DNA from: Granulicella mallensis MP5ACTX8
GTDB lineage: Bacteria > Acidobacteriota > Terriglobia > Terriglobales > Acidobacteriaceae
NCBI RefSeq assembly: GCF_000178955.2
Contig: NC_016631.1
Location: 1,364,001 to 1,428,000, forward strand
DNA: 64,000 bases
Direction: 5' to 3'
This document shows, piece by piece, positions 6,020 to 50,371 of the stretch. The notes under the pieces are model-generated. The model was given only the letters and a program-made list of their open reading frames with translations, had not been told where the DNA came from and ran no database searches. How positions within the stretch are numbered: position 1 is the stretch's first letter; each line of letters opens with the position of its first letter. The translations under genes were made by a program, and so were the position numbers.

Positions 6020-6206
<187 letters not shown>

Positions 6207-6395: not shown

Positions 6396-6424
6396 TTGCT
6401 GAAGCTATACGGCCCGCGTAGAAT
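6396..6424 (+). promoter_or_regulatory. Predicted sigma-70-type promoter of the cysDNH operon
   Basis: TTGCTG (6396-6401), a 17-base spacer and TAGAAT (6419-6424; five of six matches to TATAAT). Transcription would start near 6431, just ahead of the Cys-rich leader ORF at 6447. The rest of 6207-6395 shows no gene. Confidence 0.5.
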
Positions 6425-6446
6425 AGAACGAGTGAAAGTTACCTGT

Positions 6447-6488
6447 ATGTGCGGTTGTCGCTGTCCACAGCTCTTTGGCTGTTGTTGA
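6447..6488 (+). CDS. Cys-rich leader peptide upstream of cysD
   Basis: A 13-codon ORF that reads Met-Cys-Gly-Cys-Arg-Cys-Pro-Gln-Leu-Phe-Gly-Cys-Cys-stop (ATG 6447, TGA 6486-6488). Five of the 13 codons are cysteine, ending in a Cys-Cys pair directly before the stop. It sits between a good promoter-like sequence and the first gene of a cysteine-precursor (sulfate reduction) operon. That is the layout of amino-acid attenuators, in which ribosome stalling at codons for the end product controls downstream genes; Cys-rich upstream ORFs of this kind are known before sulfur genes in actinobacteria. The ribosome site is weak (GAAAG about 9-10 bases upstream). The regulatory role is inferred, not shown. 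Confidence 0.65.
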   Translation: MCGCRCPQLFGCC

Positions 6489-6625
6489 CACCTTTCCGCA
6501 ACCTGGCTGTCCTTCACTTTTACAGCCTGTAGTTGGTACCTTCACCCCATCAAATTCCAGATTTATCCATTGCCGGCAGGTCAGCCGGAGGCGCGGGTGC
6601 AAATGCGCCGAACCAGGAGGATTCC
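6489..6625 (+). promoter_or_regulatory. Leader segment with alternative hairpins, possible cysteine attenuator
   Basis: A hairpin can form with stem GGCTGT (6505-6510) against ACAGCC (6522-6527), extended outward by CAAC (6499-6502) with GTTG (6532-6535). The CAACC at 6499-6503 can instead pair with GGTTG inside the leader ORF (6453-6457), so the position of a ribosome on the leader could decide between structures. No long T tract follows, so control of translation is as likely as transcription termination. The energies of these folds were not computed. Confidence 0.35.
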
Positions 6626-7570
6626 TTGCCAATCAAAACTGCTCCAGAAGAAAACGTCTCGGAGGTGCTGCGAGAGCGGCTGAACCATCTGCAGGCGCTT
6701 GAAGCCGAGAGCCTCTATATTCTGCGCGAGGCTGTCGCTGAGTTCGCGAAGCCGGTGATGCTGTACTCCATCGGCAAGGACTCGAGTGTCATGTTGCGGC
6801 TGGCGCAGAAGGCGTTTTATCCGGGCAAGATTCCGTTTCCGCTGCTGCACGTCGATACCAGCTACAAGTTCCCGGAGATGATCTCGTTTCGCGACACCTA
6901 TACGAAGGAGATTGGCGCCGATCTTATCGTGCATCGCAACGAGGCGGCAATCGCCGATGGAGCCAGCCCCTGGAAGCTCGGCACGCAGAACTGCTGCGGT
7001 GCTTTAAAGACGCGGTCTCTGCTGGATGCCCTGGAAGAAGGCGGCTTCGACGCTGCTTTTGGCGGCGCGCGGCGCGATGAAGAAAAGAGCCGTGCGAAGG
7101 AGCGTGTTTACAGCTTCCGCGATGGGGCGGGGCAGTGGGACCCCAAGAACCAGCGGCCTGAGCTGTGGAGCCTCTACAACTCGCGTCTGCGCAAGGGTGA
7201 GAGCATTCGAGTCTTCCCGCTGTCGAACTGGACGGAGCTCGATATCTGGCTCTACCTCTACTCTGAGCAGATCCCTATCGTACCGCTGTACTTTGCGGAA
7301 GAGCGTCTGGCGGTTGTACGTGGCGGTTCAATCACGCTGATACACGATGGTGTACGTCTGTTGCCCGGCGAGAAGCCTGAACTGATGAAGGTGCGGATGC
7401 GTTCGCTGGGCTGCCTGCCCTGCACGGGCGCGATTCGCAGCGATGCGGACACGCTGCCGAAGATTATCGAGGAGCTGATTACGTTCCGCCGCAGCGAGCG
7501 CGAGAACCGCGCGATCGATCACGATGAAGAGGGCTCCATGGAGCTGAAGAAGCGGGAGGGCTACTTCTAA
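6626..7570 (+). CDS. cysD: Sulfate adenylyltransferase subunit 2 (small subunit)
   Basis: ATP sulfurylase small subunit; with CysN it makes adenosine 5'-phosphosulfate (APS) from ATP and sulfate in the cytosol. The PP-loop is seen as [16 protein letters not shown], followed by the family's [35 protein letters not shown] and SNWTELDIW blocks. The likely start is the TTG at 6626, 5 bases after an AGGAGG ribosome site; the frame stays open to 6533 but the extra residues do not resemble the family. This gives 314 residues, close to the usual ~300. It is the first gene of cysD-cysN-cysH; the stop abuts the cysN start directly. Expression is probably governed by the promoter and Cys-rich leader at 6396-6488. 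Confidence 0.95.
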
Positions 7571-9214
7571 ATGAGCACACAGGGATTGGGTTTGAACGAT
7601 AGTGTGCGCGAGACGGCCTTCCGCGCTTTTCTCGATGCACATCTCGACCAGGAGATGCTGCGCTTTACGACTGCCGGCAGCGTCGACGACGGCAAAAGCA
7701 CGCTCATTGGCCGTCTGCTGCACGATACCAAGAGCGTGTATGAAGACCAGCTTGCCTCGATTCGCGCGAGCCGCGTAAACCGCGCGGGCGCAGGTGTCGT
7801 CGATCTTTCGCTGCTGACCGATGGTCTGAAAGCGGAGCGCGAGCAGGGCATTACGATCGATGTGGCCTACCGCTACTTTTCGACCTCGAAGCGGAAGTTC
7901 ATCATCGCCGATACTCCCGGGCACGAGCAGTACACGCGCAATATGGCGACCGGAGCTTCCACTGCGGACGTGGCGATTGTTCTGATCGATGCGAACGCTT
8001 TCGCGAAAGCTGATGGCTTGTTGCCGCAGTCGCGCCGCCACACGTATATCGCCAGCCTGCTGCGGATTCCACATGTGGTGGCGGCGGTGAACAAGATGGA
8101 TCTCGTCGGTTACTCCGAAGAACTGTTCCAGCGTATTCGCGAGGAGTACGGCAAGCTCACTACGCAGCTCGGTCTGCCGAGTGTGGAGATCATTCCCGTA
8201 AGCGCGCTGGCTGGCGACAATGTCGTGGAGCCTTCAACGGCCATGCCGTGGTACACCGGTCCCACGCTGCTGGAGTATCTGGAGACGGTGCCGCTGGAAC
8301 TCGTTGAGGCCAAGCATGGGCCGCTGCGTTTTCCAGTGCAACTGGTCATGCGGCCCGATGCGACCTTTCGCGGATTTGCCGGACGCGTTGAACGCGGTGA
8401 GGTGAAGCCCGGCCTGCGGGTGAAGGCCTTGCCGAGCGGGCGTACTACGCGTGTGAAGAGCATCGTGACCTATGACGGCGAGTTGAAGTCCGCGAGCTTT
8501 CCGCAGAGCGTGACCCTGGAGCTTGAGGACGAGATCGATCTCAGCCGCGGCGAGATGCTGGTGGCGGAAGATCAGGCGCCGCCGCTCATCAGCACGCAGT
8601 TTCGCGCGATGGTGGTGTGGATGGGCGAAGACCCGCTCGTCGTGGGCAAGACCTACCTGGCCAAACACACGACCCGTACTGTGCGTGCGACCGTGCGGAC
8701 GATTCGCTATCGCGTGGACGTGAACACGACCGAGCATCGCGATGCGGCAAAGCTAGCAATGAATGACATCGCCGAGGTGGAGTTCGAGACCAGCCTGCCG
8801 CTGTTCTTCGATACCTATGCCGAGAGCCGCGGTGCGGGATCGTTGATCCTGATCGACGCGGTGACCAACGCCACGGTGGGCGCGGCGATGATCAACGCGT
8901 CGATAGACGACTCCGAGAGTGCTGTCGAGCACAAACCGGCCTTTCTCTTCTTCCAGGGCGATGAGGCTGCGGCCATCTCGTTCCGTGAAGAGCTGCATCA
9001 TCTCGGTCAGCGGGCGGTGATCGTCGACGATCCGCTGATTCCCGAGAGCACCTTGGTAGCGGTAACGCGTGCTTTGCAGCTCGCTGGTGTAACGGCCATC
9101 TCCGCGCGCGCGGTTCTCAGCTCTGAAACTGTTGCCTCACTTCGGTCATCTACTGAAGACCACTTCGTGCAGGGCCTTGAGGCTGCGCGGACCTGGCTGG
9201 AGGCGAAGCGATGA
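7571..9214 (+). CDS. cysN: Sulfate adenylyltransferase subunit 1, with decayed APS-kinase-like tail
   Basis: Regulatory GTPase subunit of ATP sulfurylase. G motifs are clear: GSVDDGKS (residues 36-43), DTPGHEQYT, and NKMD. Domains 2 and 3 of the translation-factor type follow. At 547 residues it is ~70 longer than stand-alone CysN but shorter than CysNC fusions (~620-640). The last ~90 residues (about 455-547, starting KPAFLFFQGDEAA) line up in pattern with the opening of APS kinase, where LWFTGLSGSGKTT is expected, but the P-loop is gone, so this tail cannot be an active kinase. This fits CysH being an APS rather than PAPS reductase. It starts at the base after the cysD stop and overlaps cysH by 4 nt (ATGA). 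Confidence 0.93.
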   Translation: MSTQGLGLNDSVRETAFRAFLDAHLDQEMLRFTTAGSVDDGKSTLIGRLLHDTKSVYEDQLASIRASRVNRAGAGVVDLSLLTDGLKAEREQGITIDVAYRYFSTSKRKFIIADTPGHEQYTRNMATGASTADVAIVLIDANAFAKADGLLPQSRRHTYIASLLRIPHVVAAVNKMDLVGYSEELFQRIREEYGKLTTQLGLPSVEIIPVSALAGDNVVEPSTAMPWYTGPTLLEYLETVPLELVEAKHGPLRFPVQLVMRPDATFRGFAGRVERGEVKPGLRVKALPSGRTTRVKSIVTYDGELKSASFPQSVTLELEDEIDLSRGEMLVAEDQAPPLISTQFRAMVVWMGEDPLVVGKTYLAKHTTRTVRATVRTIRYRVDVNTTEHRDAAKLAMNDIAEVEFETSLPLFFDTYAESRGAGSLILIDAVTNATVGAAMINASIDDSESAVEHKPAFLFFQGDEAAAISFREELHHLGQRAVIVDDPLIPESTLVAVTRALQLAGVTAISARAVLSSETVASLRSSTEDHFVQGLEAARTWLEAKR

Positions 9215-9900
9215 GCACGGTGTCAGTCGATATCGAATCGTTGCAGGCGGAAGAGCTAGTTGCAGAGATCGTGCGCGAGTCGCAGGGTGAAGCTGTATGC
9301 CTGACGAGCAGCTTCCAGACCGAAGACATGGTCGTGCTGCATCTGCTGCGCAAACACCTGCCGCATGTGCCGGTGATCTTTCTCGAAACGGGATATCACT
9401 TTCCCGCATTGATCGAGTATCGCGATCGCCTGGCGCAGGAGTGGGATTTGAACCTCATTAACGCGATGCCGCGCACGACGCTTGCCGAGCATGAGAAAGA
9501 GTTTGGCCTCTTGCATATTGTGGAGCCCACGAAGTGCTGCCAGATTCGCAAGGTCGAGCCTCTGATGCGCTCGCTGGAGCCGTACTCCTGGTGGTTTACC
9601 GGGCTGCGGCGCGAACAGTCGCCGACACGCGCGGGGCTCAAGAAGATTGAAGACCATAAGCTGCCGACCGGCAAGCAGATGAAGAAGATCAGCATCCTGG
9701 CGGACTGGGACTGGGCACGCGTTGAGGCCTACGCGCAGGAGCACGGGATTCCACGGCTCTCGCTCTACGACCAGGGCTATACGAGTATCGGCTGCGAACC
9801 CTGCACGGCCATTCCAGCAGCGGGTGCGGATGCGCGCAGCGGGCGCTGGGGCGGCAAAAAGCTGGAATGCGGCATCCATACCTTTAGCGAGAAAGAATAA
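9211..9900 (+). CDS. cysH: Assimilatory APS reductase (phosphoadenylyl-sulfate reductase family)
   Basis: 229 residues, PAPS/APS reductase family with the SSFQTEDMV phosphate-binding segment. The cysteine set that separates APS reductases from PAPS reductases is present: a CC pair (109-110) and CEPC (195 and 198), which bind a [4Fe-4S] cluster in characterised APS reductases, plus the catalytic C-terminal ECGIH (Cys220). It should therefore reduce APS directly to sulfite and AMP with thioredoxin-type electrons, bypassing APS kinase. The start codon overlaps the cysN stop (ATGA), implying translational coupling. Sulfite reductase genes are not in the window. Confidence 0.93.
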   Translation: MSTVSVDIESLQAEELVAEIVRESQGEAVCLTSSFQTEDMVVLHLLRKHLPHVPVIFLETGYHFPALIEYRDRLAQEWDLNLINAMPRTTLAEHEKEFGLLHIVEPTKCCQIRKVEPLMRSLEPYSWWFTGLRREQSPTRAGLKKIEDHKLPTGKQMKKISILADWDWARVEAYAQEHGIPRLSLYDQGYTSIGCEPCTAIPAAGADARSGRWGGKKLECGIHTFSEKE

Positions 9901-9921: not shown

Positions 9922-10983
9922 ATGATGCGCGAACGTCGCCAGATTGTTGAGCTTTGGGAGCGCGGCGAGGCCGAAGCCCTGGTAACGCTCGTGCGCGTGG
10001 AAGGCTCGAGCTATCGTCGTACAGGCGCACGGCTATTGGTGGCCGCGAACGGCGATTATGCAGGTTCTATCTCTGGTGGCTGTTTGGAGGCCGAGGTCGT
10101 TCGCAAGGCGAAATGGCTTGTCCGCGAGGGCGCTACGATCCAGCGCTACTCGACCTTGTTCGATGATACGGCTGAGATTCCTTACGGTCTCGGGTGTGGT
10201 GGCACGGTGAACCTCTTGCTCGAACCAGCGGGGACACCGGAGTTCGAGAGGCTGATGGAGGGCATGCGTTCGTCCCTGCGAGGTGAGACGCTGTTTGTTG
10301 AGACGGGGCTTCCGACCGCTGGAAAGGCGCTGTACCGCATCATTCAAAGCGTAAAGACTGCTTTTCCTCCGCGCGTCAGTTCTGACTGTCCTTCCGATTC
10401 CGGCAACGCCTTCTGCGAAACGCTCGAGCCGCCACAGCGGCTCTTTGTCTTTGGGGCGGGTGATGATGCTCGGCCGGTCGTGCGCATGGCATCACTGCTG
10501 GGGTGGAGCGTTATTGTGGTGGATGCGCGTCCCCAATGGGCACGGGCCGAGCGCTTTCCCGAAGCAGAGCGTGTGCTCGTATCGCCAGTCACTGACGATT
10601 TGCGCATCGACTCGAGAGATGCCGTTGCCGTGATGACGCATAGTTATGAGCAGGACCGCGCGTGGCTTGCTGCTGTCTTGCCCCACAGCCCACGCTATCT
10701 TGGATTGCTGGGAGCGCGGCATCGCAGCGCTTTGCTGGTGAGCGAAGCGGCTGCCCTGTTGGGGTGGACACTGGAACGTGTCTGCGCGGGAATCTTTGCT
10801 CCTGTTGGGCTGGATCTTGGCGGCGACGGCGCGGAGGCGATTGCTCTTTCAATCGTTGCGGAGATACAGGCCTGTCGTGAAGGGAAGCTTGGTGCCTCGC
10901 GGCGCATGGCCCCCGAGACGGTTATGGCGCTGATTGCTAAAGAAGGAGCGTCGCGCTACGTGCAAACGCAGTGTGCTCTATGA
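9922..10983 (+). CDS. XdhC/CoxI family molybdenum-hydroxylase maturation protein
   Basis: 353 residues. The N-terminal XdhC/CoxI domain contains VEGSSYRRTGARLLV, GSISGGCLEAEV and YGLGCGGTVNLLLEP; the C-terminal Rossmann-like XdhC domain begins LFVFGAGDDARPVVRMA and contains LGLLGARHR. Family members bind molybdenum cofactor and help insert its sulfurated form into xanthine dehydrogenase-type enzymes. An MocA-like gene overlaps its stop by 4 nt, a common pairing. The molybdoenzyme itself is not in the window. It starts 21 bp after cysH and could be on the same transcript, although the functions differ. Confidence 0.9.
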   Translation: MMRERRQIVELWERGEAEALVTLVRVEGSSYRRTGARLLVAANGDYAGSISGGCLEAEVVRKAKWLVREGATIQRYSTLFDDTAEIPYGLGCGGTVNLLLEPAGTPEFERLMEGMRSSLRGETLFVETGLPTAGKALYRIIQSVKTAFPPRVSSDCPSDSGNAFCETLEPPQRLFVFGAGDDARPVVRMASLLGWSVIVVDARPQWARAERFPEAERVLVSPVTDDLRIDSRDAVAVMTHSYEQDRAWLAAVLPHSPRYLGLLGARHRSALLVSEAAALLGWTLERVCAGIFAPVGLDLGGDGAEAIALSIVAEIQACREGKLGASRRMAPETVMALIAKEGASRYVQTQCAL

Positions 10984-11540
10984 GTATTGCGGGAATCGTT
11001 CTGGCCGCGGGTTCTTCAAGCCGGCTGGGCAGGCCAAAGCAGACAGTCGTGCTCGATGGCGAGATGCTTGTGGAGCGTGCCGTGCGTGTGGCGCAGGAGG
11101 CCGGACTTTCACCAGTAATCGCTGTGATGAACCCTGAGGGTGACTTCGGTCACTCACTGCAACAGTTGGGCTGCCTTGTTGTGATCAATGAAAGTGCCGC
11201 AGAGGGTATGGCATCTTCAATTCGCCGCGGTGTGGTTGTGGCGAAGATGCGGAAGGCCAGTGGCGTCGTGTTGATAACCTGCGATCAGATCGCAATCAGT
11301 CCTGAGCATCTGCAGGCTCTATGCGAGGAGCCTGCAATCATCGCCGGTTCAGGATATGCAGGCAGAGTTGGCATTCCAGCATACTTTCCTGAGTCGAGCT
11401 TCGAGAGCTTGCAGCAGTTGAGTGGGGATGTGGGTGCACGTGAACTGTTGCGGACTGCGCGAGTGGTGGCGAATGAAAAGCTTGCGCTCGATATCGATAC
11501 GGAAGAGGATCTAGCACGCGTACAAGATACGCTCTCGTAG
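10980..11540 (+). CDS. MocA-like molybdenum cofactor cytidylyl/nucleotidyltransferase
   Basis: 186 residues, nucleotidyltransferase of the MobA/MocA group. The signature GIVLAAGSSSRLGRPKQ sits at the N-terminus, with GVVLITCDQIAIS carrying the metal-binding Asp and a DIDTEEDL end. MocA proteins transfer CMP (MobA proteins GMP) to molybdopterin; pairing with XdhC favours the cytidylyl form used by hydroxylases. The ATG at 10980 overlaps the preceding stop (ATGA) and is preferred over the GTG at 10971. It is the last gene of this run; a MITE-like repeat and a convergent gene follow. Confidence 0.88.
   Translation: MSIAGIVLAAGSSSRLGRPKQTVVLDGEMLVERAVRVAQEAGLSPVIAVMNPEGDFGHSLQQLGCLVVINESAAEGMASSIRRGVVVAKMRKASGVVLITCDQIAISPEHLQALCEEPAIIAGSGYAGRVGIPAYFPESSFESLQQLSGDVGARELLRTARVVANEKLALDIDTEEDLARVQDTLS

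Positions 11541-49120: not shown

Positions 49121-50371
<1,251 letters not shown>

Follow-up and report, generated by a model that had tools for sequence, protein, structure and literature searches.

What does a very short, cysteine-rich open reading frame (ORF) do in front of a sulfate-assimilation operon? The question is raised by a stretch of 64,000 nucleotides from the genome of the cultured soil type strain Granulicella mallensis MP5ACTX8 (hereafter the window), in which a sequence-only reading had placed a 13-codon Cys-rich ORF behind a promoter-like sequence at 6396–6424 and ahead of the first gene of such an operon, and had proposed it as a candidate cysteine attenuator. The ORF lies where that reading put it, 6447–6488 (+), and translates to MCGCRCPQLFGCC*; the promoter-like segment holds TTGCTG and TAGAAT separated by 17 nt, and family models identify the downstream genes as cysD, cysN and cysH. 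A long ORF from 6533 is unlikely to mark the start of cysD, since the Shine–Dalgarno (SD) sequence AGGAGG at 6615–6620 points to TTG 6626, 137 nt beyond the leader stop. The features of the promoter, leader and operon are as follows.

6396..6401 (+): −35 hexamer TTGCTG, read from the sequence
6419..6424 (+): −10 hexamer TAGAAT, ending 7 nt before GTG 6432
6432..6488 (+): Cys-rich leader ORF with putative GTG start, 18 codons, V(M)KVTCMCGCRCPQLFGCC followed by TGA, six Cys; the GTG is kept in loci L002 and L003
6447..6488 (+): 13-codon ORF of the sequence-only reading, from an internal in-frame ATG that is lost in L003
6467..6482 (+): possible hairpin within the leader ORF, ACAGC 6467–6471 with GCTGT 6478–6482, read from the sequence and speculative
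6615..6620 (+): SD sequence AGGAGG of cysD, read from the sequence
6626..7570 (+): cysD, sulfate adenylyltransferase small subunit, TTG start (NF009214 and TIGR02039, both above cut-off)
7571..9214 (+): cysN, sulfate adenylyltransferase large subunit (TIGR02034 and NF003478, both above cut-off)
9211..9900 (+): cysH-type phosphoadenylyl-sulfate reductase (NF002537, above cut-off)

A tRNA gene lies upstream of the cys promoter on the opposite strand (6133–6206, −). Behind cysH, at 9922–11540, are XdhC- and molybdenum cofactor cytidylyltransferase-related genes that match below curated cut-offs and perhaps share a transcript with cysH.

Start codon and coding signal of the leader

The sequence-only reading has to be revised as to the start at ATG 6447. 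An in-frame GTG at 6432 lies exactly 7 nt behind the −10 box and is conserved in both closest relatives (L002 and L003), and the ATG has become ATT in L003. The true start of the leader is probably GTG 6432, giving an apparently leaderless peptide of 18 codons, since a −10 box at this distance predicts a transcript that begins with, or right beside, the start codon. The pattern TTG-N20-TANNNT-N7-RTG has a single match on both strands of the 64 kb, with 0.25 expected and at least one match in 23 of 100 shuffles, which is weak on its own.

The earlier reading also held that such a density of Cys would hardly arise by chance. A simple binomial with the local TGY frequency gives P of about 1e-4 for at least six Cys in 17 codons of one frame; strong evidence for rejecting chance is that Cys-rich ORFs recur in other species. 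It had further looked to conserved Cys codons in relatives as the mark of a real leader. Between the window and L003, the 18 codons align with no indel, gaps falling only outside the ORF, and differ by three synonymous and seven amino-acid changes; amid these, L003 keeps five of the six Cys (in one case with a synonymous codon) and gains another. The DNA of L002 is nearly identical to that of the window and adds little.

Recurrence in the genus, the family and the class

cysD is present in 26 of 28 genomes of the genus, with a usable upstream region at 25 loci (L026, a truncated gene, and L027, a second piece from genome G021, were excluded). Upstream of cysD, within 450 nt, a stretch whose final 14 codons ahead of a stop include at least three Cys was found at 14 of the 25 (L001–L003, L008, L015, L016 and L018–L025, of which L008, L023 and L024 are doubtful); it was not found at the other 11 (L004–L007, L009–L014 and L017). 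Peptides with two Cys and an RC[PS] motif, for example MKDTSFRVARCSKLTEKC, occur at L007, L010, L012 and L014, and like peptides at L011, L013 and L017; at these seven loci the sensor has possibly been lost or changed.

Across the family, a cut-off of E ≤ 1e-60 gave cysD matches in 128 of 250 genomes. Another 112 upstream regions were read, which brought the set to 137 loci and left out a handful of places that were partial or at contig ends (G115, G210, G218, G225, G239 and G245); a further 80 named loci were scanned separately, outside this count. With start codons chosen by Cys score, so that individual starts may be wrong, the best short ORF before cysD held at least four Cys at 93 of the 137 loci and at least five at 75, compared with 12 and 8 on the reverse complement and 14 and 7 in the reversed sequence. 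Among 685 shuffles the corresponding shares were 6.7% and 2.8%. Recurrence, which the sequence-only reading had made its test, is thus borne out, with exceptions at 11 of 25 loci in the genus and at the 44 of 137 loci that fall below four Cys.

As in leader-peptide attenuators, a short ORF rich in Cys codons stands before an operon of the Cys pathway, and what recurs between species is the Cys codons while the overall sequence differs. Peptides diverge widely across subfamilies (MRRVLTDRCCCLL, MSLYSMSVACCACCCAPRRTMG and MVVFVNRACCCCRMLPCPCPRCCR), with Cys as the main common feature. In 92 upstream ORFs (uORFs), 28.1% of in-frame codons encode Cys, while the two alternative frames give 4.5% and 3.1%; the size of this difference is inflated by preselection for at least four Cys. 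The same uORFs have a median of six Cys and a median length of 22 codons. An extreme case is the leader at L185, MKSTSHLRCCCCHACCACRGFVRACMCCCC, with 12 Cys in 30 codons.

Beyond these loci, leaders with at least four Cys were found at all six further loci of the own family, at 21 of 27 in family f7 (reverse strand, 3 of 27) and at the single locus in f2; none of 20 loci in f6, a family of the same class, had one. This survey covered f7, f2 and 20 of the many f6 loci, with families f4, f8 and f9 left out. At three f7 loci (L237, L317 and L318) the Cys part is followed by a common Gly-rich tail (CSGAGR, CTGAGG and CTGAGR).

These data bear on three alternative interpretations. One is that the ORF in the window arose by chance and that genuine leaders exist only in other species, as the 11 genus loci without a stretch of three Cys and the uninformative near-identity of L002 might suggest; we consider this scarcely credible because L003 preserves frame, length and five of six Cys with gaps only outside the ORF, the promoter spacing in the window fits the family pattern, and a NirA-type gene of the same genome also has a leader (see below). 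Another is that the ORF encodes a functional small Cys-rich protein, for example one binding metal or thiols, co-expressed with the operon. High Cys density would suit such a protein, but non-Cys residues, length and Cys spacing vary between subfamilies (by eye), Cys continues to the end of the ORF (the last is within four residues of the stop in 69 of the 92 uORFs) and SD sites are missing, all of which make this interpretation very improbable.

A third interpretation holds that what is conserved is a DNA or RNA element, such as a regulator site or a structured RNA, which gives rise to the Cys-rich ORF incidentally, and that the peptide is unused. A TGTCCACRGC core and the end TGTTGTTGAC are indeed conserved in L001–L003, L018 and L025, and several codons (TGT TGT, TCG and GAC GGG) are third-position-fixed in 16 aligned members of the subfamily SCCRLSNIFDGC. 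We nevertheless judge it improbable, although somewhat less so than the previous two, because unrelated-looking peptides across subfamilies share in-frame Cys after a start just behind a −10 box, and because Rfam covariance models, applied to the window and 20 other loci, placed only tRNA genes above the gathering score, with no riboswitch or T-box; the best non-hit reached 18.9 bits against a cut-off of 64.5, on the opposite strand.

The subfamily SCCRLSNIFDGC was aligned separately (alignment A1, 21 loci including L206, L056 and L168). It has a GTCGAA/TTCGAC hairpin inside the ORF, and GACGGGTG is complementary to CACCCG about 60–90 nt downstream, a trp-like layout. Helix 15–23/28–36 is 93.7% paired, the alternative helix 32–39/102–109 is 90.4% paired and helix 102–108/122–128 only 66.4%. 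Eight of the 17 pairs in the first two of these helices are invariant; in helix 32–39/102–109 no double change occurs, and its pairing does not exceed that of shuffles. Covariation is slight because the helices hardly vary, and we make no claim of trp-like covariation in A1.

Predicted initiation at the 5′ end of the transcript

The arrangement of promoter and start codon recurs with the peptide. In 50 of 96 distinct ATG-bearing uORFs, the nearest ATG follows the end of a TAnnnT box by 6–12 nt, where about 4.5 would be expected from a background of 0.0067 per position. When any in-frame start is allowed, TAnnnT at 4–12 nt is found at 73 of 104 loci, and in 56 of these 73 TTGnnn lies exactly 17 nt before it. 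The 104 loci are those with at least four Cys or a CCC, CCR or GCC motif (107 minus three duplicate peptides), and retain a few doubtful ORFs such as L004, L008, L197 and L230. SD-like sites occur before 3 of 92 uORFs, which is not above a background of 30 in 552, and before 49 of 93 cysD genes. As in the mycobacterial leaders discussed below, the start codon is predicted, from sequence alone, to lie at or near the 5′ end, with no SD site. Initiation of this kind is plausible in the phylum because predicted leaderless genes average 13.3% (9.7–19.4) in three Acidobacteria genomes, according to the portion of PMC3160421 that was available.

The region between the leader and cysD

No intrinsic terminator of the kind used in trp-type attenuation was found between the leader ORF and cysD in the window. 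The sequence-only reading had pointed here to alternative pairings (CAACC with GTTG) as a switch; these are not supported, since they comprise only 4–5 bp and the leader region of the window folds no better than shuffles (z +0.56, 141 of 200 shuffles at least as stable). Two features of this region are listed.

6489..6573 (+): C-rich, G-poor strip (C29 T28 A17 G11), candidate Rho-binding (rut) region by base composition
6505..6527 (+): hairpin GGCTGT 6505–6510 with ACAGCC 6522–6527; in L003 GGTTGC/GCAGCC, with one double change and one G-U pair

The hairpin has no T-run behind it and is not a terminator, and the comparison with L003 is one of only two distinct lineages.

Many relatives differ in this respect. 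Under a loose rule, a hairpin with a T-tract lies between the uORF stop and cysD at 49 of 104 distinct loci, compared with 15 and 21 in two controls, and 46 of the 49 begin 20–60 nt past the uORF stop (for example at L136 and L022); a stricter rule leaves 21 of 104, against 4 and 5 in controls. In the genus, L015 and L019–L023 have such a hairpin, and the window, L002, L003, L004, L008, L016, L018 and L025 have none. Antitermination, taken as pairing of the 3′ end of the uORF with the left arm of the terminator, gave a weak signal in 37 terminator-bearing relatives (mean −14.4 kcal/mol versus −12.6 for mismatched pairs, s.d. 3.2), and a similarly weak one by rank, with 6 of the 37 in the best 5%.

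What may take the place of a terminator in the window is the strip at 6489–6573. Its excess of C over G is matched by 295 of 25,566 stretches of the same length (85 nt) sampled from both strands of the window. Among the 64 loci that lack a strong terminator, 61 likewise have more C than G over the 80 nt behind the stop, compared with 24 of 64 in an upstream control. The combination of no terminator with a C-rich, G-poor strip after the stop, in a genome that encodes rho, favours Rho for the window; on this base composition, we tentatively regard Rho-dependent termination, masked by a stalled ribosome, as the likeliest version of the termination step there. The rho gene itself is at 49124–50362 (+) of the window.

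A second leader in the same genome

Cys leaders are not confined to cysD. Before the genes that are the best matches to the NIR_SIR family in the genus, leaders with at least four Cys were counted at 11 of 26, with no reverse-strand control and with L254 and L269 doubtful; at the other 15 loci, a peptide with a Cys-Cys pair was seen by eye in 11. The window's own genome has the leader MSFSRIATCCLCPGTGASILVAR, with three Cys, before a NirA-type gene (L255, about 3395730–3395801, −), and its putative promoter, TTGCTT-17-TACCCT-7-ATG, has spacing equal to that in the window. For the reductase gene at L255 the best-matching family is NirA (397.7 bits against a cut-off of 523); the gene falls below every curated nitrite or sulfite reductase cut-off and reaches that of CobG marginally (236.5 versus 234.8). 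We infer that the NirA-type gene with a Cys leader is probably an assimilatory sulfite reductase.

Control genes of the genus gave leaders with at least four Cys at 0 of 26 loci for cysS, 0 of 26 for cysE, 1 of 30 for cysK and 1 of 16 for the sulfate permease, not beyond background. Searches of the own genome with the patterns TGYGGNTGYCGNTG (26 matches versus 17 in the reversed control) and TGYTGYTGYTGY (119 versus 54) were too unspecific for finding leaders.

Proposed mechanism

Together, the recurrence, the in-frame Cys signal and the promoter arrangement argue strongly for a cysteine-responsive leader peptide (uORF) that would control cysDNH in cis. We take the ORF to be a genuine Cys-coding leader under selection that most likely acts as a cysteine attenuator. 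RNA polymerase would start the transcript on the leader's start codon or no more than a few nucleotides away, and the resulting leaderless message would be taken up by a 70S ribosome. With ample Cys-tRNA, the ribosome would pass the Cys codons and terminate, exposing the RNA behind the stop, and most transcripts would stop short of cysD. Under a shortage of Cys-tRNA, the ribosome would stall on Cys codons near the 3′ end of the ORF and the operon would be transcribed. The stop signal in many relatives would be the intrinsic terminator shortly behind the leader stop; in the window it would be Rho-dependent termination at the C-rich strip, masked by the stalled ribosome. The earlier term candidate cysteine attenuator thus stands in so far as the Cys leader recurs across species; as the window has no terminator, the sequence suggests an attenuator in the strict sense only for relatives.

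An alternative interpretation, translational attenuation or coupling, is that the ribosome on the leader affects the translation start of cysD and not transcription. In its favour, no terminator was found in the window, and mycobacterial leaderless poly-Cys sORFs are described, in the available text of PMC13236596 and PMC9031893, as acting on downstream translation. We consider this rather unlikely here because the leader stop is far from TTG 6626 for coupling (137 nt), AGGAGG is unpaired in the centroid fold, though the minimum-energy fold pairs part of the region, and relatives have transcription terminators at the same locus.

Relation to known leader peptides

In trp-type attenuators the regulatory codons of the leader peptide specify the amino acid that the pathway makes, whereas with tnaC tryptophan is sensed in the ribosome. 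Canestrari reportedly described, in 2020, leaderless poly-cysteine sORFs before mycobacterial cys operons.

Cys-rich leader ORFs have been described in mycobacteria and a few other Actinobacteria (PMC1262725, PMC4633059, PMC9094748, PMC13236596 and PMC9031893, each as far as its text was available), the first mycobacterial candidates in PMC1262725 and PMC4633059, whose available parts agree with the sequence-only reading that Cys-codon uORFs are known in actinobacterial sulfur operons. As described there, the mycobacterial poly-Cys sORFs resemble the apparently leaderless leader in the window in being leaderless short Cys ORFs that head a sulfur-assimilation operon, with Cys near the stop and no obvious terminator. 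This is a likeness by description only, as ORFs of this size are too short for testing homology, and the system reported here belongs to another phylum, has terminator-like hairpins in about half of the family members, includes leaders before a NirA-type reductase gene and is known solely as sequence. That reading knew of no description in this kind of genome, and our literature searches found none for Acidobacteriota: the matches listed, from searches that left subscription journals mostly uncovered, held no report of an Acidobacteriota Cys leader in the text available (including PMC4833913 and PMC2965389).

The uORFC-8-2 motif, which precedes cysS in Rhodobacterales, shares with many relatives here a uORF whose Cys codons are followed by an intrinsic terminator, but it regulates cysS and usually has two tandem Cys at codons 14 and 15 (PMC8632094, available portion); the element in the window precedes cysD, and cysS leaders are absent at all 26 control loci. 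Trp-type attenuators and ilvB1 (PMC13236596, in part) likewise use codons for their own product and, as in many relatives here, terminators; the leader ORF here differs from classical attenuators in being apparently leaderless, and the window in having no terminator. For mycobacterial Cys leaders Rho has been proposed and tna-type attenuation named (PMC1262725, available text), an arrangement in which, as here, a leader peptide is followed by a terminator-free region, C-rich in our case, that would be covered by a ribosome standing at the end of the ORF. The difference is that we propose codon starvation and not the sensing of tryptophan in the ribosome.

Implications

Leaders of this kind are already known from mycobacteria, and none was found for Acidobacteriota in the literature searched, as far as its text was available. 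We regard it as an even prospect that Acidobacteriota have a cysteine regulon of leaderless leaders, independent of the mycobacterial one, whose members in Acidobacteriaceae are cysDNH and a reductase gene of NirA type (probably for sulfite) and which extends to cysD leaders in at least one further family, and that related lineages have kept the leader but exchanged the switch, some having an intrinsic terminator and others, the window included, a Rho-type strip. With cysteine as its named signal, such a system would offer two targets (genes or operons) and many variants found in nature. Leader ORFs that are apparently leaderless would also be known from a second phylum and, in relatives, would be joined to an intrinsic terminator, a combination that raises the question of how a ribosome starting at the very 5′ end is timed in its race with RNA polymerase.
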